NCBI GenBank assembly: GCA_003439945.1
Contig: QVRM01006574.1
Location: 683,501-747,500, forward strand
DNA length: 64,000 nucleotides
Origin: Dermanyssus gallinae
Lineage: Eukaryota > Arthropoda > Arachnida > Mesostigmata > Dermanyssidae
Reading direction: 5' to 3'
Below are positions 2,392-58,631 of the stretch, one piece after another. A program made the translations under genes and the position numbers. Every line of letters starts with the position of its first letter. Positions within the stretch are counted from its first letter, which is position 1. The notes under the pieces were generated by a model. It saw only the letters and a list, made by a program, of their open reading frames with translations. It searched no databases and had not been told where the DNA came from.

Positions 2392-3335
2392 TTACAAGCA
2401 TTCTCGCTGAAGCTGAGAAAGCGACACGGATTCCGTACAATCAGGTAGGTGGTAGAGGGGACATGGGCCGCCACAACGACGGCATCTGCAGTTCTCCTTG
2501 GGTTCATGAAACCCAGCAGACCGGCATAGTAGATGATGAAATCCGTGAACACTGTAGCGAGTAGTGAGGTGACGACATGGCCGGAGAGAGTCCTTCCAGG
2601 CCTGGTTAGTCATAGCTGGTGTTAGATAAAACTCTCTGGGAATTAGAGACACTTTTTGAGAATACTCATGCCGAAACGTTTCCAGAGCGACTGTCTGCGA
2701 CAAATTAAAGCGGTCTACGAGTTATCAATGAATGATACTGAACCCGCGAGCATGTACACTAATCTGTTGCGCGAATTTGGCGGAAGGCCAAGTACTCGTT
2801 TCAAGAAGGCTGGCTTCACCCTATCCAACTGCCATAACTGCGAAGTGCTAAGATGTTTCCATGTCACTTGAATTCCGTAAGCAGCTACGGATGCCACTTT
2901 GAGCGTAAATAATGTCATGGCCGTCCGGACGGACAACTGTGTTGGGTTTCTGATACCCGCTGCCGCGATAAGCGCTTTTCTACAACGCTCAGTTACATGC
3001 TGTGAAAAAGTTGTACCTCGAGACGAGAAAATTACCCCGAGATAGCAAAAGGTCTCTACAAACTGCACTTGCTCACCGTGAAATCGCAGTTTATCTGCGC
3101 GGGCTCGCTGCCCGCCACGCCGAAACTTAACAGCCTTGGTTTTTGACACGTTTACTATGAGGCCATTCTGCGAGAAATATTCATCCAGTGTACAAAGAGC
3201 AGCCTGCAGGTCAGTACGAATTCTGCTGAATATTACCAGATCATCTGCGTAGAGCAGGGTCATGACCGTTGAGTGTCGCTCTTTCATGATGCGTGGCAGA
3301 TCACTGAGTAATGTTATAAATAATAATACAGACAA
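2392..3335 (-). pseudogene. LINE reverse transcriptase, 3' half (catalytic to C-terminal part)
   Basis: The minus strand encodes the second half of a non-LTR RT. It begins in the middle of the palm (LSVLLF...SDLPR), has the catalytic YADD followed by LVIFSR, then GLIVNVSKTKAVKFRRGG, FCYLGVIFSS and the thumb motif LDRVKPAFLKRVLGL. A frameshift near 2700 joins the first frame (3335-2715) to a second (2703-2392), which ends in a degenerate Cys-rich tail. The start is not a Met: base 3335 is where the RLE LINE at 3336-8010 begins. The matching N-terminal RT half lies on the far side of that LINE at 8011-8525, so this looks like a target element split by the insertion. A relative is at 40871-41164. 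The clade is uncertain (jockey/CR1-like by motif style). Confidence 0.8.
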
Positions 3336-3382
3336 GTTGAAGTTTATTTATACATTATACACAGCATAATTTTAATACGTAA

Positions 3383-6033
3383 TCAGAGCAGACCCGGTAG
3401 ACCACTGTCTGAGGGCAGCGAACCTAGCACTGCAGCCGCATTTCCACGTTGCACTTCAATTGATATTCTTTGTAGCAGAAATTCCCCTGCCCTTTTCTCA
3501 TCCTTCTCACTTGCCGCTCTTTTCCCAATTTCTTTCAGAAATTTTACTGTTGATTCGCCTATTACTATGACTCCCATTGTTTCTATGGCAACTGGCTGCA
3601 CTATAAAAGATGCCTCAAACTCGCGGTACTTCAAACTTTTCCGCTGCTCCGCTAAATTAGCAACAGCACCTGCTGATCTTGAAGCTCGGCTTCTATAAGA
3701 CGGCGCCAGCGTGTCCCACACGGTTGCGTCCCGTACAAGGGCCTTTCCGGAGGACCACGGAACCAAGGTCATTCCGTCTGGACGTAAGGCTGAGTCCGCT
3801 GCTAGTCCGACTGGCTCTTTTCTGCAGGGTACGTTAGCGGATTACAACGCTCTTAAAATCACTTCGTTGAGGGCGGCGTGGCACGAATGTCTTCCGCAGC
3901 TCTTAGGACAGCTGAGGCCGTGCTCTCCCGTCGGCGACACCGGTGTGTTGCACAGGGAGCAACTATGGGGCGCACACACAGCCTCCCCTAACCGCAGGCC
4001 GGCAACGATGCGGAGTGTTGTCCAGCATCGTTCCCAGCTGCGGCGAGGGGATGGCTTGAAGCCATTTTGCGCTCGTATCGTTGAAAGCTGCTAGTAGGCG
4101 TGCCTTGCCGAGTGCATCAGCCGTGTTGTTCAGGAGCTTCTTTTGAATGGCTTCGACTGCCACAGCATCCAGAGCATGCTGGCGTGTGTCGTCAAGCACC
4201 GCGCGGTGATATGCGGCGAACTCCTCTTTTTTGGACTCCATGATCCGTTCTAAAAAGGACTTGACGTTCGAAGGAGATATAGATATAATCAGTTCCTGAA
4301 GTGTGGTGATTGAACCCAAGAATGCGGTCTGGGCCAGATCGGTTGCACGTCGTATTCCTAGACCTCCGGCTGTTGTAGGAAGGGTAGCCTGGTCCCAATT
4401 AGCCCCGTCCAGATTCAAATTTAACACCCGATCCACGCACTGTCTCAGCCTATCGTCAAATTGTTGTAGAATGTTCTTTTGGGCCGATGCATCTATGCAG
4501 CGAAGGATATAGATTAGCCTTGGTGTCGAGAGGCTAGTTCGCATCAAGAATAATGCAGGATGCGCATCGAGGGATTTCAACCTGGAACACCAGAGATTCA
4601 TTAGCTCGCACTTCCTGTTTAGGGCGAGTTTTGCGGAGGCCGTTGTGAGGGGAGCTCCTAAAAGCTCGATGTTTTCATCAGTGCAGAGCTTGATGTCAGG
4701 AAGCAGGCCCTGCGCCCGGCGTAAACACTCGTCACGAAAGGCGTAGTCGGATGACAAGACGTACAGCTCACACTTTGAAGCATTTAGTTGCAGTCCAGAG
4801 ATGACGCCGAACTCGATTATCTTTTCCACATCACTAAGGGCGGAATCAAGGGTACCTCCAATTGTGCCATCGTCTAAGAACCACGGCTTAAATTCCGACT
4901 CCAAAGCAGAAAGCAATTGGCAAATCGCCAGACAGAAGAGGGCCGGGCCACAGAGGTCCCCTTGCTGTACCCCACATCTGGAGAGTACGATCTCTTCCCC
5001 CCAAAAGAGATTGGATGGGCTCCTGCACATTTGGTAGACTGCGGGGTACATTGCTGGAAAGTTTGATTTGACGGCTTCAAGAATTACATCCCTTCTCAGC
5101 GAATTAAAAGCATTTTTAAAATCGAGTTTTATCAGCACCTTATTGGACGCCGAGTTAGTATTTACAAAGGCACTTGCCGCGTGGACAGCAGCCTCGCAGC
5201 CTCCTTTAACTCCACAACCCAGTTGAACGGGGGCAATCCTGTCGATAATCGGCGCCATGTATTTGCGGATTAGCACTTTACACGCTAGCCGTCGCAGGGT
5301 ATTCCCGACTGCTATCGGGCGGAGACCACCGTTTTTCTTTAAAGCTATAAGATTCGCTCCATAGAAGTTACTAAGTGCGAACCCTGGTAGGCGGCCATTC
5401 ACGACAAGGTTGCAGAAGTCCGTCAGAGCAAAAAGGAGGGGGCAGATCTGGTCACCCTTTCCAATAAGGTTTTTTAGGTGTCTGGGCTTGAGACCGTCAG
5501 GGCCTCCACTTGAGCTATTTAAGAATGCGCGCTGCTGACGAAACATCCCCCTGAGCCAGTTTTGCCTGTGCCACCCGAGCTCTTTGTCTATCATCGTTTG
5601 TGTTAGTCTTCGGCGCCGCGACATGGTTAGCATTGATGGCAGCATCGAGTGGGGCACGACTCCTGAATCGACTGAGGTTGTCCCGAATAAGTGAACACAG
5701 AGACTTTCCTTTTGCCTTTTGCCGTGGGATGGTGAGGACCGTTGTTGCAAAATGAGCCAGACGAGACCACGAGTCCAGATCATTCACTGAGCAAATCGAC
5801 TTGATTGTGTTGGTCAGTTCGGCAGCAACTATGGGTCTCACGCCTCGAGGAACGATCGAGAGCATCTTGAGATTTTGGCGAACAGCGGACAGTCGTTGAA
5901 CGGTGCGAGTGAGGGCAGTTGACGGTGAGATCGGCGCCGGAAGTCGTGTTGACGACGTCATGGTTGGCGTCTCAGTGTTGCTGTGCGTCAGCGGTGTTGT
6001 CCACTGACGAATGTCTAGTTGTCTATTGGTCAT
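3383..6033 (-). pseudogene. RLE-type LINE ORF2: reverse transcriptase plus restriction-like endonuclease
   Basis: The ATG at 6033 starts a conserved N-terminal region (VPRGVRPIVAAELTN..., then AKLAQGDVSSAARILK) that ends near 5515. A deletion and frameshift there lead into the RT frame (about 5530-3963). The RT begins GGPDGLKPRHL and has KLDFKNAFNSLRRD, GVQQGDLCGPALF and the catalytic FLDDG at about 4881-4867, in place of the usual F/YADD of LINEs. After the thumb (ELLGAP, AGGLGIRRA) comes [12 protein letters not shown]. The frame then breaks near 3965 inside the zinc knuckle, and an in-frame TAA lies near 3842. The last part (3772-3383) encodes RPDGMTLVPW followed by a D-A-T strand, the P-D...D core of an RLE nuclease, and ends EVQRGNAAAVLGSLP. 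A more complete relative is at 57150-58503. The exact clade (R2, R4/Dong or NeSL) is undecided. Confidence 0.82.
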
Positions 6034-7852
6034 TAGGATCAGAAGAAGGCGACCCCGTATTGACACCTGTTCCGTAGCCAGTGTTCGTCGAAGGCGACGA
6101 TGTCTGGAGTGCATGGAGCGACGGCGTCACTGCGGAAGTCGTTTGTGGAGCCTTCGGCTGAGGTTGCTGTACCATGCTCAACTCAAGTGCTGAGCGGAGA
6201 GCCAGTTCCAGCTGGCCGCGAAAGCCGTCCGACAACTCAGAGACGTTGCCAGGCGCTATAGGTGGGCCGCTTGAATGTGCAAGCTGGGGAGAGCAGTCGA
6301 AAGTGCTCTTTGGATTGCTGTTCCGATTTGCGTGACTATGACGTCGATTATAATTGGAACTATTTTCTTTGTGACGCATTGCACCACCTTGTCAATGTTG
6401 TTGATTTGGTGTACATCATTGGTGACCTGGTTTTGCTTTTTGATCACTGTGCTGAACCTTGGGTGTCGCCGCGGGTACTTTAACCCCGTTCTGAACAACG
6501 GCAGAGAAAGACCGCTTGGAAAAGGAGGACGACGGCTGAATATCGGCCACGGGTGCGCAGATCTTGACCGGCGTGGCCTCAGGCTTCCTCTCTATAACCC
6601 GTATTGCTGACTTCTTTAGCTGCTCCATACGGCGAAGTCGATGCGGGCAACTGCCGGAAGTAGCTTCATGGTTTGATTTACATAGGCAACACTTCGCCGC
6701 TTGGTTGCAGTCTTTCCGGAGATGGTTCGTGGAACCACAGCGGCGACAGCGAGGTGCCGCCCAGGGGTAGTCCGGCTTGATGTGGTCCAAGCTATAACAC
6801 CGGTAGCACTGGTGTGGCTCTCTATAGAGCATCACCCCGTGTGTTTTAAGGCCCAGACAAACTTCCGTCGGAAAATCAATTCCGACAAAAGTTAGGATTA
6901 CTTGGTCAGTGGCCATAACTATGCCAGTTTGTGCGTTCTTCGCTCTGACTCGAATGGCCTCTGTGACACCTAAAGACCCCAACGCGTTAATAATAGTTGT
7001 GTCGCTGAGCGACGGATGCACACCGCAGATTTTTCCATTTACTGTCGATCTTTGGCCACTCACTCTAGACTGAACCGGGATACGTCCGACTGAGGTTAAA
7101 CTCAGCAATGTTGCTCTGTCTTCAGCGTCCTCGGCGACGATAACAAGTTCGCCGGCTCGTGTAAAACGAGGTTCCTCAACTTTTCCTTTAAGATGTCTAG
7201 CGACGTCATCGCAAACAGCGTTAAAATTGGTCTCCAGCAAATTATTGTCGGCGGCAAAAATAATCGCCTCAGGTCGCTCATTTGTTTTAACCTTTGGTAT
7301 TGCCTCCTTTCTAATAACTTTGCCACCCGCACCAACTACGCTCCAACTCTCGGTGTCTTCCTCGTCGTGCGTCTCACCGGAGTCCCCGGTCGGCCGCGCT
7401 GTGGCACCGCTCTCCATGGCTTCCCTTTCAGCGCTATCGTTACTAGCGCCAGAGGATTCCGCTAACGTTGTCAGCTTTGCACCGCTCTTTCCGGCCGCTC
7501 TTGTCTTCAATGGTTTCTCCCGTTGCGGCGGGCTGGTGGCTTGCCGTTTGATAGCTGCCGCTGTGACAGCGGTGTCGATGCCGACGACATCCCCTCCACC
7601 GGCTGTACGTTGCGGCTGCTTTCTCCTTACCTCCTTTCCACTTGTTGACATTTCTGCTGCTGCCTCAGTCTCTTGACCGGCTGCAGCTTTTCGAACGTCT
7701 CCCGATGTTTCCGCGTCTGCGATAGAAGGCCGATCATGGTCGCCGCTCGAAGCGTCTGGTGGCGACGTTGTTGTTGTTGTCGTCGTCGATGAGCAAGGTT
7801 GAATGTCCTGCCGTGGTGTTTGTGCCGGCGTTGGCGAACGTATCACACCCAT
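6023..7852 (-). pseudogene. Gag-like ORF1 of the RLE LINE (CCHC zinc-knuckle RNA-binding protein)
   Basis: A true ATG at 7852 opens a frame of about 610 codons. The first 200 or so residues are low-complexity (poly-Thr, Ala, Gly, Glu). A folded gag-type region follows, then three zinc knuckles at about residues 348-405: CYRCYSLDHIKPDY (last Cys replaced by Tyr), CRRCGSTNHLRKDC (intact CCHC) and CCLCKSNHEATSGSC. Such proteins coat LINE RNA. Two compensating frameshifts break the C-terminal part: the frame stops at 6416, the sequence is carried by another frame over about 6480-6300, then returns to the first frame down to the TAG at 6023. This path is supported by the homologous fragment at 19.86-21.12 kb, which aligns to each frame in turn. 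The style resembles jockey/I-clade ORF1. Confidence 0.8.
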
Positions 7853-8010
7853 CTTGATGTCACTCCACCATACAAGTGTTCACCGGATGTTGAAGTTATT
7901 GCTCGACAAAAAACAGCACTGGGCGAGGTCAGCAAAATCACCAAATCACAGTTTTTCACAGAGCTCGAAGAAAGTCGACTGCACCACTCGAATGATCACG
8001 TTCGAAAAGA

Positions 8011-8525
8011 ACCGCAAACAACGGGAGTTCTTTCCGGTTTAATGAGATTGTGATCTGCTCGAGAAGTACTTCGCAGGCTGAGATAGTGGAACGCCCGGTC
8101 CTGAAGCCATGCTGCTCATCTGGAAGGAACCCCAGTGCTGTCAGAAAATCCGTGAGACGTCTTGTCAGTATGCTTGAGAGTAGTTTGTAGACACAACTTC
8201 TTTTGGATATCGGCCGCCACGCAGCAGGGTCCGAAGGATCTCCTTTTTCTTTTGGAATTACTTTAAGAAGGCATTCATACCACTTGGCTGGCAGAGCGCC
8301 CTCAGAGAGGCATCTGTTAAAAAGGGACTGCCATATAGGCACGAGGAGATGTCCCTGCCGAAGGTGTTCATTCCTTACAAGATCTGGCCCGAATGCCTTG
8401 TTATTAAGGGCAACATTGACTTCGTCTGGACTAAACGGTTCATCAAGGGCCTCAGAGAAAAATTTCTCGGGAGTTTCGAGCTCGTACGAAATAGGAATCG
8501 CCATATCGAAAGCGAAGGCATGCAT
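8011..8525 (-). pseudogene. LINE reverse transcriptase, N-terminal half
   Basis: The minus strand encodes the start of an RT domain: FSPDEVNVALNNKAFGPD, LFNRCLSEGALPAKW, VIPKEKGDPSDPAAWRPIS, CVYKLLSSILTRRL and EQHGFRTGRST, ending at KELPLFAVLF just before the expected catalytic Asp block. After that the sequence becomes the 5' leader of the RLE LINE. A stop upstream of 8525 shows that the 5' side is truncated. The reading direction and position suggest that this and 2392-3335 are two halves of one target copy. About 70-80 residues of the RT between them are missing. Confidence 0.78.
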
Positions 8526-10143: not shown

Positions 10144-11973
10144 TTAGCCGGTCTGCTTTCCGTTTGAGGAGCCTTTGCCCTGCGTAGGACCATTTTTCTT
10201 TCCTGTGTTGATCTTTGAAAGAGCTTCTGCTTTGGCGTCCTTCGAAATCGGAGCGCCCGTAGATGGCTGGCCGGTTTTCGGTGCAGAACACTTGGGCGGG
10301 ACCAAGTTTGCCTTCGGCACAGCATTGGCTGCTGTTGCTGCTGCTGCTGCAGCAGCTGTCTGACTGCTGTTCAGGCCACCACCCGTTGTCTGGACGGGCG
10401 GCCCTTTTCCAGGGCCTGCTTTTGCGCCGTTGGCCACTTGGCCACCTTTTGACAAGTGCTTGCTAGTGGACGGGTTCAATGTCGCACAGGCTGACACCGC
10501 CTGACCCGCTTTAGGCGGCGGGGGCGCCGAATGCTTCGGAGGAACTGTTGACGGCTGACCGACCTTTGACGCGGTGTCCTTCGTTTGATTGCCGCCGCCG
10601 TCCGACGGAGTGGCCGTCTGCGTATTTGCTGGGGCGGCCACTCTCTTTGACAAAGGTCCCTTTGGTGCGGCCTGGCCCGCACCTGGCACCGGCGCCGCTC
10701 CTGGTACCGTTGCCGCCCCTGGCTTCGCCGCAGTCGCTCCTGGTACCGTTGTTGCTCCTGGCTTTGCCGCTGCTTCTGACTTTGCCGCTGCCGCCGCTCC
10801 TGGCTTTGTCGACGCTCCTGACTTTTCCGCCGCTCCTGACTTTTCCGTTGCTCCTGACTTTTCCGTTGCTCCTGACTTTTCCGTTGCTCCTGACTTTTCC
10901 GTTGCTCCTGACTTTTCCGTTGCTCCTGACTTTTCCGCCGCGCCAGACTTTTCCGCCGCGCCAGACTTTTCCGCCGCTCCAGACTTTTCCGCCGCTGCAG
11001 ACTTTTCAGCTGCTCCTGACATTTCCGCCGCTGCAGACTTTTCCGCCGCTCCAGACTTTTCCGCCGCTCCTGACTTTTCCGCCGCTCCTGACTTTTCAGC
11101 TGCTCCTGACTTTTCCGCCGCTCCAGACTTTTTCGCTGCTCCTGGCTTAGCCGCTGCCACCGCTCCTGACTTAGCCGTCGCGGCTCCTGGTGCCGCTGCC
11201 GCTTCTGGCACTGCCGCCGCTTTTGGTACCGCCACCGCTTTTGATACCGCCGGCCTTGATACCGCCGCCGCCGCCGCTGCTGCCGCCGCTGCATCGGGTT
11301 TCGTTGCCATGGGGACCGCCTTTGCCGAGGGGACCGCCTTTGCCGAGGGGACCGCCTTTGCCGAGGGGACCGCCTTTGCCGAGGGGACCGCCTTTGCCGA
11401 GGGGACCGCCTTTGCCGAGGGGACAGCCTTTGCCGAGGGGACAGCCTTTGCCGAGGGGACAGCCTTTGCCGCGACCTTGGCCGGAACGGCACTCTTTGCC
11501 GGTTGGACCTGTTTGGACGGACCTTTTGCAGGCGGCATTGCGGGCACTTTGGACGTGGGACGCGCTTCCGCTGCTGTGATCGGCTTAGCTGGGGCTGGGG
11601 GCTCAATCGGTTCTTGCGCGCCGCTCTCGACGGCCACTGGAATCGGCTCGGCCGGAGCTATGACGCCCTCTTCTTCCGGCTGCGGCTCGACTTCGGCTTC
11701 GGCTTCAGCCTGGAGGCCGGCCGCACCCTCCTGCTGCTGCTGCTGCTCAGCGTCAGCGGCTTCACGAGGTGTAACCTCTGCTGGTGCGGCCTCGGCCGGT
11801 GCTTCAGCGTCCGCCGCCTCAACGGGAGCATCGGTAATCGAATCGTTTGTCGGCGGGGGACACGCAGCCTCCGCGTCCTCGTCAGGCTTCACATCTGCCA
11901 GCGGATCGCATTGCTGTTGATCGTTTGCCGTACCCTCGGCGTTACCGATCTCCTCTGCTACCTCCGTCGACAT
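10144..11973 (-). CDS. Ala/Pro/Lys-rich hexapeptide-repeat protein (gene 1)
   Basis: This is a single open frame for a protein of about 609 residues with no recognised domain. The frame stays open upstream to 12006 but has no ATG there. The ATG at 11973 (MSTEVAEE) is chosen because the same ATG-TCG-ACG-G context starts genes 2 and 3. The N-terminal 130 residues are acidic (Glu/Asp/Ala, with a Gln run). The middle holds nine AKAVPS units, a poly-Ala stretch, then about 18 units of KSGAAE or KSGATE. The C-terminal 170 residues are Pro/Gly/Lys/Ser-rich and basic. There is no signal peptide and no membrane segment, so an intracellular disordered protein is the simplest reading. Its function is unknown. 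Gene 2 at 21.1-22.2 kb is a clear paralogue in N-terminus and upstream DNA. Long antisense and alternative frames exist because the 18-bp repeats lack stops. Confidence 0.68.
   Translation of the reverse strand: MSTEVAEEIGNAEGTANDQQQCDPLADVKPDEDAEAACPPPTNDSITDAPVEAADAEAPAEAAPAEVTPREAADAEQQQQQEGAAGLQAEAEAEVEPQPEEEGVIAPAEPIPVAVESGAQEPIEPPAPAKPITAAEARPTSKVPAMPPAKGPSKQVQPAKSAVPAKVAAKAVPSAKAVPSAKAVPSAKAVPSAKAVPSAKAVPSAKAVPSAKAVPSAKAVPMATKPDAAAAAAAAAAVSRPAVSKAVAVPKAAAVPEAAAAPGAATAKSGAVAAAKPGAAKKSGAAEKSGAAEKSGAAEKSGAAEKSGAAEKSAAAEMSGAAEKSAAAEKSGAAEKSGAAEKSGAAEKSGATEKSGATEKSGATEKSGATEKSGATEKSGAAEKSGASTKPGAAAAAKSEAAAKPGATTVPGATAAKPGAATVPGAAPVPGAGQAAPKGPLSKRVAAPANTQTATPSDGGGNQTKDTASKVGQPSTVPPKHSAPPPPKAGQAVSACATLNPSTSKHLSKGGQVANGAKAGPGKGPPVQTTGGGLNSSQTAAAAAAATAANAVPKANLVPPKCSAPKTGQPSTGAPISKDAKAEALSKINTGKKNGPTQGKGSSNGKQTG
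10808..11131 (-). repeat. 18-bp minisatellite coding KSGAAE/KSGATE, about 18 units
   Basis: Direct tandem repeat inside gene 1 with an 18-bp period, so each unit adds six residues without breaking frame. Variants occur at the fifth residue (Ala or Thr), with occasional KSAAAE and MSGAAE units. Five consecutive Thr-bearing units look like a local unit expansion. Confidence 0.9.
11308..11469 (-). repeat. 18-bp minisatellite coding AKAVPS, nine units
   Basis: A second tandem array in gene 1 with the same 18-bp period but unrelated unit sequence. The units are almost identical; the three nearest the N-terminus share one silent change. This suggests recent expansion. The array is absent from gene 2, which has only a single related stretch (AKSVPT). 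Confidence 0.9.
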
Positions 11974-12006
11974 GACAAGGCTGCTGAACACCGGCTCCTC
12001 ATTCAA

Positions 12007-19858: not shown

Positions 19859-21117
19859 ATGGACGATAACAGCAAAACAAATGAACAGGGCAATGGCGCA
19901 GCAATCGCTACGGTTGGTGTTTCGGCCGATAAATGTCATCAGTTACCCAGGGGGACAAAATTTAATTGGGGAGGAATTAAGTCGCAGTGCAGGGAACACC
20001 CGTTAAAGAGGAGGATGATGTTGCATGGAGTAAGGTGGGGTCTGGAGATAAAACTATTGTCGCTGTGCTGAAGGCCATTGCTAAAGACAGACCGGAGGCA
20101 GGACCGGAGGAAATTAACGCTGTGCGCGATGCTCTTGCCGGCCACATAATCTGCCGGGAAGGTAGAGGAACCACGATTTACCCGAAGTGGGCAACTTGTT
20201 ATTCTTGTGGAGGAGAACGAGAACAAGGCTGTCCTGCTTAGTTTGCAGTCTCTGACCGGAGTGCTGGTCGCATCAAAATTAAGTGGCTCTCCTTCGTCAG
20301 TAAAAGGGCAAACTACCGGAGTCCAACCAACGCTGAATGACGCGGAAATATCCAGTGCCCTGAGGCCCTACGGGGTAGCAGAAGCCGTCAGGGTACGCGC
20401 TCTGAGAAGGTTAGAACGGGCATTGTCATGCCAATCGACAATGGTATTTTTATCTTTTTGTGGCTGCGATCTTCCAGTGGAGGTGGGTCTTGGCGTTAAA
20501 ACCCGCGGAGTTCTCTTGTACCGTGACTCAACCATATTAGACCCAATTGCCCATTGCCGTTTCCGCGCTGCCAAGGACTGCACTAATATGCCGCACGCTG
20601 CTGCTGCCGCTGCAAGAGTAATCATGAAGCCAGCTACAGTTCTTGTCCACATTGATTGAACCGCATGGAGCTTCTTAAGCGGTTTGCGAAGAAAACTATC
20701 CAGCCGCAGGCTGAAGTCGCGCCTGTGAAGTTATGCGCCTGTGAAGTTATGCGCCCCGTTGCAGATATTCAACCCGCTGTTTAATCATTAACTACACGGC
20801 ACTAAATCTGGTTGGTTCACGACGCCAAGTCTGCCCCTTGCGCTTCGGCTGCTCACTCCGTGTATGAGGTGGATCTACTAGTAGAGTCGATCACAAAGAA
20901 TATTATTCCTTGTCTGGTGGAAACGATCGTGGTGAGAAAAAAATGGGTGCTGTTATCAAATCAGTGCTGTCGTCGCTCCTCCTCCTCCTCCTAGGGTTAA
21001 GTCACGATGCTTAGACCAAACACGTTTCGGAGGTTACGCCTCAAGTTGAGAATTCACTCATTGGCAGTGACCTTCGCCGCCGAATTGAGGCGGCGATAAG
21101 TGCTGCGCTTTTCCCGG
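19859..21117 (+). pseudogene. Gag-like ORF1 fragment of RLE-type LINE, second copy
   Basis: Plus-strand fragments align with ORF1 at 6.0-7.9 kb. The shared blocks are EEDDVAWSKVGSGDKT, TTGVQPTLNDAEISSALRPY, VEVGLGVKTRGVLLYRD, MELLKRFAKKT, VDLLVESITKNIIP and finally GSDLRRRIEAAISAALFP. The zinc-knuckle segment is badly eroded. Several frameshifts are needed. A 16-bp unit (GCGCCTGTGAAGTTAT) is duplicated in tandem at 20719-20750. The fragment stops abruptly at about 21117 against the repeat array of gene 2, with no ORF2 following. Loss of the 3' side is unusual for a LINE and points to a rearrangement. Confidence 0.75.
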
Positions 21118-22218
21118 TGACAAAGGTCCCTTTGATGTGGCCTGGCCCGCCCCGGGCACCGGCGCAGCCGCTCCTGGTACCGTTGGTGCTCCTGACGTTG
21201 CCACCCCTCCTGACGTTGCCACCCCTCCTGACGTGGCTACCCCTCCTGACGTGGCCACCCCTCCCGACGTGGCCACCCCTCCTGACGTGGCCACCCCTCC
21301 TGACGTTGTCACCCCTCCTGACGTTACCACCGCTTCTGACGTTGCCACCGCTCCTGACTTTACCACCGCTCCTGACGTTGCCGCTGCTCCTGACTTTACC
21401 ACCGCTCCTGATGTTGCCACCGTTCCTGACTTTACCACCGCTCCTGACGTTGCCACCGCTCTTGATTTTTCCGCTGCTCCTGATTTTGCCACTGCTGCCG
21501 CTTCTGACTTTGCCGCCATCACTGCTGGCCCTCCTGACTTTTCCGTCGCCACTGCTGGCGCTCTTGACTTTGCCACTGCAGCCGATCCTGACTTTGGCGC
21601 CGCTACCAGCCTTGCCGCGTCCGGTCCTGGTGCCGCTCCTGGCACCGCTGCTGCCGCTTTTGATACCGCCGGCCTTGATACCGTTGCCGCTGCCGCTGCT
21701 GCTTTTGCTTTCTCCTGTGGCGCTTGCGACGCTGCATCGGGTTTCGTTGCCGTGGGCACAGACTTTGCCGCGACTTTGGCCGGAGCGGCACTCTTTGCCG
21801 GTTCGACCGGTTTGGACGGAACCTTTGCAGGCGCCATTGCGGGCACTTTGGATGTGGGACGCGCTTCCGCTGCTGTGATCGGCCTAGCTGGGGCCGTCGA
21901 CTCAATCGCTTGTTGCGCGCCGCTCTCGACTGCCACTGGAACCGGCTCGGCCGGAGCTAGGACGCCCTCTTCCGACTGCGACTCGATATCGGCTTCGGCT
22001 TGAGGCTGGAGGCCGGTAGCGCCCGCCTGCTGCTCAGAGTCAGCGGCCTCTGTTGGGGCGGCCTCGACCGATGCTTTAGCTTCCGCCGCCTCAACTGGAA
22101 CACCGGCAATCGAATCGTTTGTCTGCGGGGCACACGCAGGCACCGCATCCTCGCATTGCTGGTGATTGTTTGCCGTACTGTCGACGTTACCGATCTCCTC
22201 TGCTACCTCCGTCGACAT
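21058..22218 (-). CDS. Ala/Pro/Ser-rich repeat protein, truncated paralogue (gene 2)
   Basis: An open frame of about 386 residues starting at the ATG at 22218 (MSTEVAEEIGN), paralogous to gene 1. The acidic N-terminus, the VPVAVESGAQ...TAAEARPTSKVPAM block and the GAGQATSKGPLS block all match gene 1. The repeat region differs: units of TSGGVA, TSGAVV and KSGAVA replace KSGAAE, still with an 18-bp period (about 21185-21480). After GPLS, at about 21118, homology to gene 1 stops, and the last 20 or so codons are antisense to a LINE gag fragment. The C-terminal 170 residues of gene 1 are therefore missing. It may be a pseudogene or a shortened functional gene. No signal peptide is present. Confidence 0.6.
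   Translation of the reverse strand: MSTEVAEEIGNVDSTANNHQQCEDAVPACAPQTNDSIAGVPVEAAEAKASVEAAPTEAADSEQQAGATGLQPQAEADIESQSEEGVLAPAEPVPVAVESGAQQAIESTAPARPITAAEARPTSKVPAMAPAKVPSKPVEPAKSAAPAKVAAKSVPTATKPDAASQAPQEKAKAAAAAATVSRPAVSKAAAAVPGAAPGPDAARLVAAPKSGSAAVAKSRAPAVATEKSGGPAVMAAKSEAAAVAKSGAAEKSRAVATSGAVVKSGTVATSGAVVKSGAAATSGAVVKSGAVATSEAVVTSGGVTTSGGVATSGGVATSGGVATSGGVATSGGVATSGGVATSGAPTVPGAAAPVPGAGQATSKGPLSPGKAQHLSPPQFGGEGHCQ
21185..21480 (-). repeat. 18-bp minisatellite coding TSGGVA and variants
   Basis: Tandem hexapeptide-coding array in gene 2. It has the same period and position as the KSGAAE array of gene 1, but the units have diverged to Val/Thr-rich forms. This indicates independent homogenisation of each array after duplication. 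Confidence 0.85.
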
Positions 22219-23045
22219 GACAAAACTGCTGGACACCGGCTCCTCATTCAATTGTCAAACGATGATCTTGTTAGATCTCTATCTTTACATATATATATAT
22301 ATACTAGAGATAAATATATATATATATATACTAGAGATAAATATATATATATATATACTAGAGATAAATACATGCACGAATATTCTACACCAGTGCCCAA
22401 ACAAAACATATAATTCAATAAAAATTATTCATTTGGCAAACCGATTTTTATTACGCAATTATTTATACATTTTAATTGACACTCAACAAAGGTGAGTACA
22501 ATAAATACGTTTGCAAGGAACCAGGAAGACGGCCATTGTCTAGAGAAGACCGGTTGTTATATGAGATAGCGTTATTACAGACTCTCGTACACTGTATAGT
22601 ATCAGTATTAGCAAATAGTAGCCAGACCATGCTATTCCTATTTCTTTAAAGTATAACAACATACCCACTAGATATCAAAACGGCAAAAATACAATTGAAA
22701 ATGCTCAGCGGAGAGTGGTGAAGTGAATTATCATTGCAGCAATCCAGGCGTTTATACTTGGTTGAAATATTTCAGCCTCTACCTCTGGGCGGCCTATTGA
22801 AGCACAGATGCATTTACTAGGCGAGATATGTGTGTCAATGCTACATCGAAGGGTTTCGAGACAACCATCAATCTAGCTAATACGTAGGCTGCAAAAGCCG
22901 TAGTTAGATGTCGGTTGCTCACCTCTCTGGCCCGCAATTTCGTTTTTCTCGTTGTTGCTGTTTCATAAATTCCTATGTCCCCTCCACTGTTTTTTTTCGC
23001 CAGTTTTTTATATATACGTTAGCAAGAAAAACCTCATCCCATCGA
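22219..23045. repeat. Upstream region of gene 2, copy of the gene 1 upstream region
   Basis: Aligns with 11.97-13.06 kb in the same orientation. It contains a 27-bp unit (an AT run plus ACTAGAGATAAA) repeated three times at about 22288-22371, where gene 1 has a simple (AT)n run. About 240 bp of the gene 1 region (near 12330-12570) are missing here. No gene is seen. Confidence 0.75.
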
Positions 23046-56630: not shown

Positions 56631-56705
56631 ATTATTATCATTACTATTATTTATTACATGTTAAACAATGTTACAGTTGTGAGGTCTGAACGTATTATTG
56701 CAAAG

Positions 56706-56707
<2 letters not shown>

Positions 56708-56793
<86 letters not shown>
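56708..56793. repeat. (ATT)n microsatellite 1
   Basis: About 85 bases of near-perfect ATT on the 5' side of the first LINE 3' UTR piece and the 3' side of the next. Poly-Leu frames here are artefacts. Confidence 0.95.
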
Positions 56794-56794
<1 letters not shown>

Positions 56795-56869
56795 TATTTA
56801 TCATTATTTAGTTAATACAATTGTGAGGTATGAACGTTTAAATCATGTTTATCCTGCTCTGTTCGCTTT

Positions 56870-56972
56870 CTGTCAGTTCATGGCGCCTATAATGGAAGCC
56901 ACGTTCCCTCTACACACGGCCAAAGACATCATCTGTCTCAAAAACATGGCCTCGCGTCGATCGCCCGTAACG
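56870..56972 (-). pseudogene. RLE LINE ORF2, last 30 codons
   Basis: The minus strand reads DRREAMFLRQMMSLAVCRGN then VASIIGAMN, the C-terminus of the RLE LINE protein. It starts directly at (ATT)n array 2, so it is strongly 5'-truncated. Confidence 0.8.
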
Positions 56973-57078
<106 letters not shown>

Positions 57079-57149
57079 TTAATATTGTTTAAATGTTACA
57101 ATTGTGAGGTGTGAACGTGTACTCCTTGTCTTCTTCTAACTCCTAAATA

Positions 57150-58503
57150 TTATTCCATGGAACCGACAATACAGCCGGCGTTTCCTCGGCACACAGCAAG
57201 CGACAGCAGTTGCCGTAGAAACTCGCCTTTGCGCCGATTCCCTGTGAGATCTGTAATCCGTTGGCCCAGCTCACTGATGAATCTCTTGGTTCCCTTGCTT
57301 ACCGGGCCCATTGTTTCCATCGATATTGGCACTACGATATAACTTGTCTCCAGTTCTTGGTACTTGCGTTTTTTCCCATTATCTGCGCGCTCGGCAACCC
57401 ATCCCGCTTCTAGTGAACTGTGGCGTATATACGAGGGAGCCACTGTACAGGACACTGTAGCATCCCATACCAAGCATCTGCCGTTAGCCCATAGCGGGAT
57501 TGTTACACCGTCTGGTCTTTTGTCGTCATGAAGTCCTAATATGGGCTCGAGCGTGCTTGGTATACCAGCTTTGCGTAAGGCTCTTTTTATAATTGCATTG
57601 ATTTCAGCGTGTCTAGAAACTCTACCATGGCTTTTGATGCAGCTAAGAGGGTGAAGTCCATCCTCAGTTACTGTGGTACCACATGCGCGGCAACTGTAGG
57701 GGTTGCAAACCGGAGCACCTATTCGAAGAGCTGTTACCATGCGGAATGAGGTGTTGTCCAGCATGGTACCCAGCTGCGGGGAAGGGAGACACTTTAGAAA
57801 GCCTCCACTAAATGTGTCCCGTGCTGCCAGAAAGACAGCTTTTTCCACTGGAGATTGGAGGTTGTCTAACAGCTCTCTAGCTGCAGCGCTGCATCTGTAG
57901 GAGTCCAATGTATGCTGTGTGGGACGTTCTTGCCAGGGGCCTGGTCCAATTGCGTGTCTAGCTATTAGCTCTGCAGCATCTTTGGCTCTTGTGATTCCTT
58001 GGCGGATGTCTGGTTCGACCAACGTTTTTGCAAGTTTACCAAATTCCAATAGAGACGCGGCATAGCACATGGGAGCCAGCTCCGCCGCTGATCTAATACC
58101 AAGTCCTCCTTCGGCAATTGGAAGGGTTGCTCTTTTCCAAGTGTCATCATGCAGGTTGACGTTTAATACTTCACCTAAAATGCTTCTTGCGGTATCGTCG
58201 TAAGCTTGAAGATCTTCGTGGCATTTAATAGCTGGTGAAGTGCGCAGAGTATAGTTAAGCTTCGGCGAGCCCAAGCTGTATCTCCAGATGCACAGAGCTG
58301 CTTGCGAATGCATCGCCGTTAAGCGAGAGCGAATTTGCTTCAGTCCAGTGCACTTTTCTTTAAGGGTCTTTGAAATCGATCGTAAGCTTATTGGGGCTCC
58401 CAGAAGCTCCAGCTCGTCTAAGTCAACGCGCCTAGATTCTGGCAAGACATTCGAAACCGCCCTAAAAATTTCATCCTGTTCTTGGGCATTACCTCCCAAT
58501 GTA
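57150..58503 (-). pseudogene. RLE-type LINE ORF2, C-terminal half with complete RLE domain
   Basis: An uninterrupted 449-codon frame without its own start (the first codon is TTG beside the (ATT)n array). It begins after the RT catalytic motif, at the thumb (ELELLGAPISL, EGGLGIRSAAELAP), then [13 protein letters not shown] zinc knuckle follows (CRACGTTVTEDGLHPLSC). The RLE core is RHAEIN, then KRPDGVTIPLW and VWDATV, that is R-H, P-D and D in the order known for R2-type nucleases. It ends GEFLRQLLSLAVCRGNAGCIV. This nuclease nicks the DNA target for reverse transcription. It is clearly related to, but diverged from, the ORF2 at 3.4-6.0 kb, so two families of the clade are present. Only 5' truncation is visible. 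Confidence 0.88.

Positions 58504-58631
<128 letters not shown>

Follow-up and report, generated by a model that had tools for sequence, protein, structure and literature searches.

A dispersed LINE family of Dermanyssus gallinae in which a gag-like ORF1 precedes an RLE-type ORF2

The element in the window

We analysed a stretch of 64,000 nucleotides from Dermanyssus gallinae (contig QVRM01006574.1, positions 683,501 to 747,500), hereafter called the window. On its minus strand lies a copy of a long interspersed nuclear element (LINE) with two open reading frames (ORFs): a gag-like ORF1, and an ORF2 with a reverse transcriptase (RT) and a restriction enzyme-like endonuclease (RLE) (Table 1). 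An earlier note on the window had described a CCHC gag-like ORF1, an RT with FLDDG, and an RLE with RPDG...D-A-T. All of these are present, with RPDG at 3783-3772 and D-A-T from 3730. The 11-nt overlap of the two ORFs that it had reported at 6033-6023 was also seen, and it is exact in 17 of the 20 other copies that we fetched.

Table 1. Coordinates of the element, its interrupted host and related remnants in the window
Feature	Position	Strand	Basis
Whole element copy (5' untranslated region (UTR), ORF1, ORF2, 3' UTR, ~19-nt 3' tail)	3323..8009	-	Ends common to other copies; the match to the host LINE breaks off at 8010 and starts again at 3322
5' UTR, starts (T)nCGAACGTGATCATTCGAG	7853..8009	-	Start within 7996-8018 in 17/20 copies
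ORF1, gag-like	6023..7852	-	ATG at 7852; open 7852-6416 in the window copy, followed by two frame lesions that compensate each other
Three CCHC zinc knuckles of ORF1	6647..6808	-	Pfam zf-CCHC and pattern scan
ORF1 stop / ORF2 ATG overlap, 11 nt	6023..6033	-	Sequence
ORF2	3383..6033	-	RT, CCHC knuckle, RLE; broken in the window copy
RT domain of ORF2	4656..5339	-	Pfam RVT_1, 6.7e-15; FLDDG at 4880-4866
Linker end, CCHC knuckle and RLE of ORF2	3383..4018	-	Relatives' profile, 254 bits over 4018-3398; R2 proteins in PDB via relatives; alignment
Interrupted host LINE, RT N-terminal half	8010..8525	-	Match to uninterrupted copy
Interrupted host LINE, RT C-terminal half	2715..3322	-	Match to uninterrupted copy
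Decayed second gag ORF1 fragment, related family	20008..21117	+	Ends without ORF2
Sister RLE family remnants	56640..58630	-	Truncated copy 58508-57153, fragment 56973-56809 and 3'-UTR remnant, all beside (TAA)n arrays

The window copy is no longer intact. ORF1 has the extent given in the earlier note but is not a single open frame, as part of its protein (~6498-6256) is encoded in a second frame and the rest, to 6023, again in the first. In ORF1 of the other copies, a pattern scan found three knuckles with the spacings CX2CX4HX4C, CX2CX4HX4C, and CX2CX3HX6C, and three gag-type CCHC knuckles are a type I feature, as in Jockey. The same scan misses the knuckles of the window copy because one knuckle cysteine reads tyrosine there. 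The AlphaFold2 model of the gag core had a predicted local distance difference test (pLDDT) score of 32, too low to show an RNA recognition motif (RRM) upstream of the knuckles. ORF2 lacks ~172 bp of the other copies at 5520/5521, its frame changes between 4018 and 3975, and it is interrupted near 3843 by an in-frame stop. An ORF2 profile built from 120 relatives listed among 943 matches accordingly fell into three frames, with the N-terminal part at 5910-5518, RT and linker at 5531-3975, and CCHC-RLE at 4018-3398.

ORF2 follows the order of an RLE-type enzyme: RT, linker, CCHC knuckle, and a PD-(D/E)XK-like RLE. With a 17-sequence profile over this whole region, the best match in PDB was the R2 protein (E 7.6e-27). 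R2 also came first in PDB when the open ORF2 itself was the query (E 1.2e-11), ahead of L1 (E 5.7e-7). A structural model of a relative, P0021, rather than of the window's own protein, gave an alignment with R2 of 708 residues at 3.8 A. For this model VIA-align ranked L1 ORF2p above R2, a ranking that speaks for the families on its list alone. The earlier note had seen no apurinic/apyrimidinic endonuclease (APE) in the element, and this agrees with our Pfam search to E 10 of the open ORFs of one copy (L025), which returned zf-CCHC and RVT_1 but no Exo_endo_phos in ORF1 or ORF2.

The element sits in the RT of another LINE. An uninterrupted copy of this host RT was found elsewhere in the genome (L031:1-1290). 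Its bases as far as 254 and those from 463 onward are matched in the window, and therefore the insertion replaced 208 bp of the host relative to L031. In place of these 208 bp are the element and its 19-nt 3' tail.

Dispersed copies and the order of the two ORFs

The genome (958.7 Mb, 7160 contigs) was searched with 2.5 kb across the gag/ORF2 junction, which gave 82 matches from the best 40 of 991 candidates. The 20 copies fetched from the top of this list are 95-98% identical to the window copy, and their median pairwise identity is 98.5%. They share their outer ends. The 3' end lies within 3324-3355 in all 20 and the 5' end within 7996-8018 in 17, the other three (L018, L020, and L027) being 5' truncated, so that the unit is ~4.85 kb long with fixed ends. 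Since the flanks differ in all but L033 and L034, the 20 copies represent 19 independent insertions. Exact flank-to-flank repeats of at least 10 bp were found in 10 of 20 copies, compared with 13 of 380 mismatched flank pairs, and the clear ones are 11, 12, 14, 28, and 93 bp long. These repeats and the differing flanks suggest insertion by target-primed reverse transcription (TPRT) that is not tied to one site. Target-specific insertion is usual though not universal in RLE LINEs; here we found 19 different flanks and varied target repeats.

Some details of the ends were also noted. In L023 the shared flank string of 93 bp includes the first few letters of the element, and the strings in the other 19 copies are 7-28 bp, some of them doubtful. 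A T run, ~4 to 30 long, lies between the target repeat and CGAACG at the 5' ends of L028, L031-L035, and L037 and at 8009 in the window; it may come from untemplated addition or from priming. At the 3' ends of L018-L037, a copy-specific stretch of a few to ~70 nt separates AATAAA from the target repeat, and in some copies (L023, L024) it ends in an A run. It is as if short read-through tails had been polyadenylated and carried along.

Both ORFs are open in 5 of the 20 copies, with 614-618 amino acids (aa) in ORF1 and 960-968 aa in ORF2. L025 has the longest ORF2, the count there beginning at an ATG further upstream, at 6114.

A query with ORF1 only gave 79 matches at 69 places, from the best 71 of 12,671 candidates. 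At 45 of the 69 places, the scored lists contain an RLE-ORF2 match that lies on the same strand and downstream. Inspection of 9 of the remaining 24 found an RLE ORF2 behind the gag in 8, making 53 of 69 in total. Two of these eight, L039 and L053, have lost the middle of the element, L039 being without the middle of ORF2, and L055 has neither an RLE nor an APE ORF2 in the 801 bp behind its gag. An APE ORF2 behind this gag, which the earlier note had named as evidence against its proposal, was looked for with an APE-ORF2 query on six stretches downstream of gag, without a match. No fetched copy of the element's gag is followed by an APE ORF2.

The arrangement extends to diverged families. In L040, L038, and L039, ORF1 is 82, 52, and 53% identical, respectively, and an RLE ORF2 lies behind the gag ORF1 in all three. 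Their ORF2 starts with M-[T/L]-[N/S], two or three residues, and D-I-R-x-W. ORF1 and ORF2 diverge in parallel among the gag families. As read from these genomic copies, gag followed by RLE is common to at least four families, whose ORF1 differs by up to ~48%, and to a sister family described below. The earlier note had asked whether the two ORFs are always adjacent with the same overlap. Adjacency held at the 53 places, whereas the overlap varies between 4 and 11 nt across families (11 nt in L040, 7 nt in L038, and 4 nt in L039 and in the sister copy L042).

Thus, the element is very probably a real two-ORF RLE-type LINE family, in which a gag-like ORF1 and an RLE ORF2 are dispersed as one unit. 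The unusual combination proposed in the earlier note is supported by the shared ends, the open copies, and the diverged families. The two ORFs also agree in their ratio of nonsynonymous to synonymous differences (pN/pS). Taken over the 10 pairs of the five open copies with the overlap excluded, it amounts to 0.218 in ORF1 and 0.216 in ORF2, and choosing open copies biases it downward to some extent. All 20 copies of the junction query are unbroken across 6030, where the earlier note had placed the breakpoint that would speak against its proposal (an RLE ORF2 with a different 5' region), and a query spanning the junction partly selects for this continuity; the shared outer ends are free of such selection. 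The tight overlap had been taken to speak against chance nesting. This argument is weak by itself because an out-of-frame ATG lies no more than 20 nt upstream of 1419 of the window's 5709 stops (25%), and we rejected the overlap as proof of a unit in favour of the other copies and families. In favour of nesting, LINEs do nest in this genome, as the element lies within another LINE and L033/L034 within an APE LINE. Even so, the idea that the gag of an APE LINE was left beside an independent RLE LINE at one place is extremely improbable and was rejected, since the outer ends are common to 20 copies in 19 flanks and the ORF1-only search and the diverged families give the same arrangement.

For the two-ORF RLE LINE, a single mRNA would carry ORF1 and ORF2. 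ORF1p might coat this RNA through its CCHC knuckles, and ORF2 would be translated by termination-reinitiation at the overlap of 4-11 nt. Insertions of the window family show no evident fixed site; those of the sister family, with a likely C2H2 finger at the start of ORF2, lie in (TAA)n arrays.

The sister family and the origin of the gag

The sister RLE family is very young: apart from the window copy, the 39 others among the best 40 of 3552 candidates are 99% identical. From 11 copies picked by the RLE end only, 6 have a gag ORF1 directly before ORF2 (L042, L047-L051), and the other 5 are truncated or unmatched upstream. The likely C2H2 finger scored E 3.5e-4, below the Pfam cut-off, and a Pfam search of the open copy L025 did not find it in ORF2 of the window family. 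This single contrast suggests that the finger may be linked to the (TAA)n preference. In the window, three sister 3' ends lie head to tail within (TAA)n and have the 3'-UTR motif GTTCANACCTCACAA in common, as if a single microsatellite had been targeted repeatedly.

The gag also occurs elsewhere. The second gag copy that the earlier note placed near 20-21 kb is present, but it is silent on adjacency because the fragment stops at ~21.12 kb before any ORF2, and we rejected it as evidence for the unit. A weak RT match at 20805-20870 (E 0.75) lies within the gag tail and was taken as chance. The fragment abuts the 3' end of the second of two minus-strand genes (10144-12006 and 21061-22254), which are related to each other and contain long tandem repeats (AKSGAAEKSGAAE-like). 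Also on the minus strand, a frame at 44441-43326 was noted by eye and, from a motif in it, is presumably that of a mariner-like transposase. Searching a protein database with the gag gave no match at E 1e-3. In the same genome, however, the APE LINE that harbours L033/L034 has the same three-knuckle gag together with an Exo_endo_phos_2 domain (E 4e-20). The sister gag matches this APE-LINE gag at 28% over 353 aa, including the C-terminal region (E 1e-46). The match of the window-family gag to the APE-LINE gag covers 177 aa (E 4e-14), and that to the sister gag covers 187 aa with 29% identity (E ~4e-16). All three comparisons give 27-30% identity, and the window-family gag is about equidistant from the other two. 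These values hint at more than one gag capture, the order of which three groups of gag sequences cannot settle. The earlier suggestion of a chimeric or little-described lineage is therefore plausible as to the chimera, without being proven.

Two origins were considered. First, this RLE subclade, and perhaps further RLE LINEs with it, might have inherited the gag ORF1 together with ORF2 from a common ancestor. ORF1 precedes ORF2 in L038-L040 as well as in the six sister copies, and the parallel divergence of the two ORFs fits inheritance together. The database relatives, some of them from a tardigrade, moths, and metagenomes, are ORF2 proteins without genomic context, in which upstream ORFs are not visible. 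However, the sister gag is closer to the APE gag than to the window-family gag, and RLE clades are described with a single ORF (PMC3636483). We give the ancestral origin an even chance. Second, through template jumping or recombination, type I gag ORF1s of APE LINEs might have passed into RLE LINEs of this lineage on at least two occasions. The APE LINE of the same genome offers a gag of the same type, the sister gag matches it longer and more strongly, and exchange of ORF1 between APE clades has been proposed (PMC4120745). However, ORF1 evolves fast and the branching order is beyond the reach of three gag groups; as the identities in the shared core are alike, the window-family gag may just have diverged more outside the core. 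Repeated capture seems to us possible but somewhat doubtful. More speculatively, and rather unlikely in our judgement, RLE and APE LINEs might trade their packaging protein: the gag would have been captured at least twice in this lineage, ORF1 and ORF2 modules would be interchangeable across the deepest split of LINEs, and RLE LINEs with two ORFs may be widespread and overlooked since only ORF2 is catalogued.

Relatives and comparison with known LINEs

The 120 relatives listed of 943 matches include 97 that are longer than 700 aa and have RPDG close to the C-terminus, and 60 of these 97 entered the tree of ORF2 relatives. The tree kept 958 whole-length columns, of which four of our five own rows fill 22-47%; support values were those of the Shimodaira-Hasegawa-like approximate likelihood ratio test (SH-aLRT) only, and the tree was rooted at the midpoint. 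RLE relatives were also sought outside eukaryotic sequences. In viral contigs, none of 18 pattern matches was confirmed. Bacterial genome contigs contained nine loci with 27-45% identity, most of which are perhaps eukaryotic contamination. One of them (L004:13-11442, in a bacterial-labelled contig) is a single frame of 3809 aa with YLDDG in its RT and an end that resembles an RLE, and it is likely to be such contamination. Another distant RLE relative, L002 (1-603, 578-4726), lies in a Verrucomicrobia-labelled contig, with 30% identity and an RT frame of 1382 aa. Upstream of it, a frame of at least 200 aa runs off the contig and overlaps the RT frame by 26 nt; no CCHC was seen in it by eye. 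L002 is possibly another two-ORF RLE element.

In the usual account of LINE evolution, single-ORF RLE elements came first and two-ORF APE elements with gag came later. The link between gag and APE is broken by the present family, a young RLE LINE that has a gag ORF1, copies with open frames, and constraint of equal strength on its two ORFs. The family also offers a system for studying the contribution of ORF1p to an enzyme like that of R2. R2 enzymes are under development as gene-insertion tools, for which a partner that packages RNA in nature could be interesting.

The earlier note had stated that RLE LINEs generally have one ORF and that a gag ORF1 normally precedes an APE ORF2, in agreement with the literature (PMC3636483, PMC4120745). 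The RLE group is likewise contrasted with two-ORF APE LINEs (PMC5678591). Type I ORF1 is listed only for APE-bearing clades: I, Jockey, R1, Tad1, and plant L1, together with some L2/CR1 elements (PMC4120745). In Entamoeba, LINEs encode ORF1 and ORF2, and a restriction enzyme-like endonuclease is cited for EhLINE1 (PMC3118788), and so two ORFs with an RLE are not unheard of. No description of an RLE LINE with a gag-type ORF1 was found in the literature searched, a search outside which lay Repbase, Dfam, and most subscription papers, and the novelty of this combination is provisional.

The element resembles R2, R4/Dong, CRE, NeSL, and Hero in the order of RT, linker, CCHC knuckle, and RLE, with no APE found. 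Those clades are described as single-ORF (PMC3636483), whereas in the element a gag ORF1 comes first, both ORFs lie in one unit with shared ends, and related families are alike. Unlike the R2 group, its insertions are dispersed. To our knowledge, the ORF1 of EhLINE1 is not of the gag CCHC type. Compared by description only, EhLINE1 is like the element in having ORF1 and an ORF2 with a restriction enzyme-like endonuclease (PMC3118788). Elements with type I ORF1 (PMC4120745) share with it the three CCHC gag-like knuckles and the position of this ORF upstream of the RT ORF. Their ORF2, as in Jockey, I, and R1, carries an APE, while that of the element carries an RLE, and no APE was found with Pfam on L025 or with the APE query on the six stretches. 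Dong elements lie in (TAA)n, as does the sister family, a likeness in insertion site alone (PMC7998251, PMC3774820). The N-terminus of R4/Dong is Myb-like without zinc fingers (PMC7998251, PMC3774820), whereas the sister family combines a gag ORF1 with a likely C2H2 finger.

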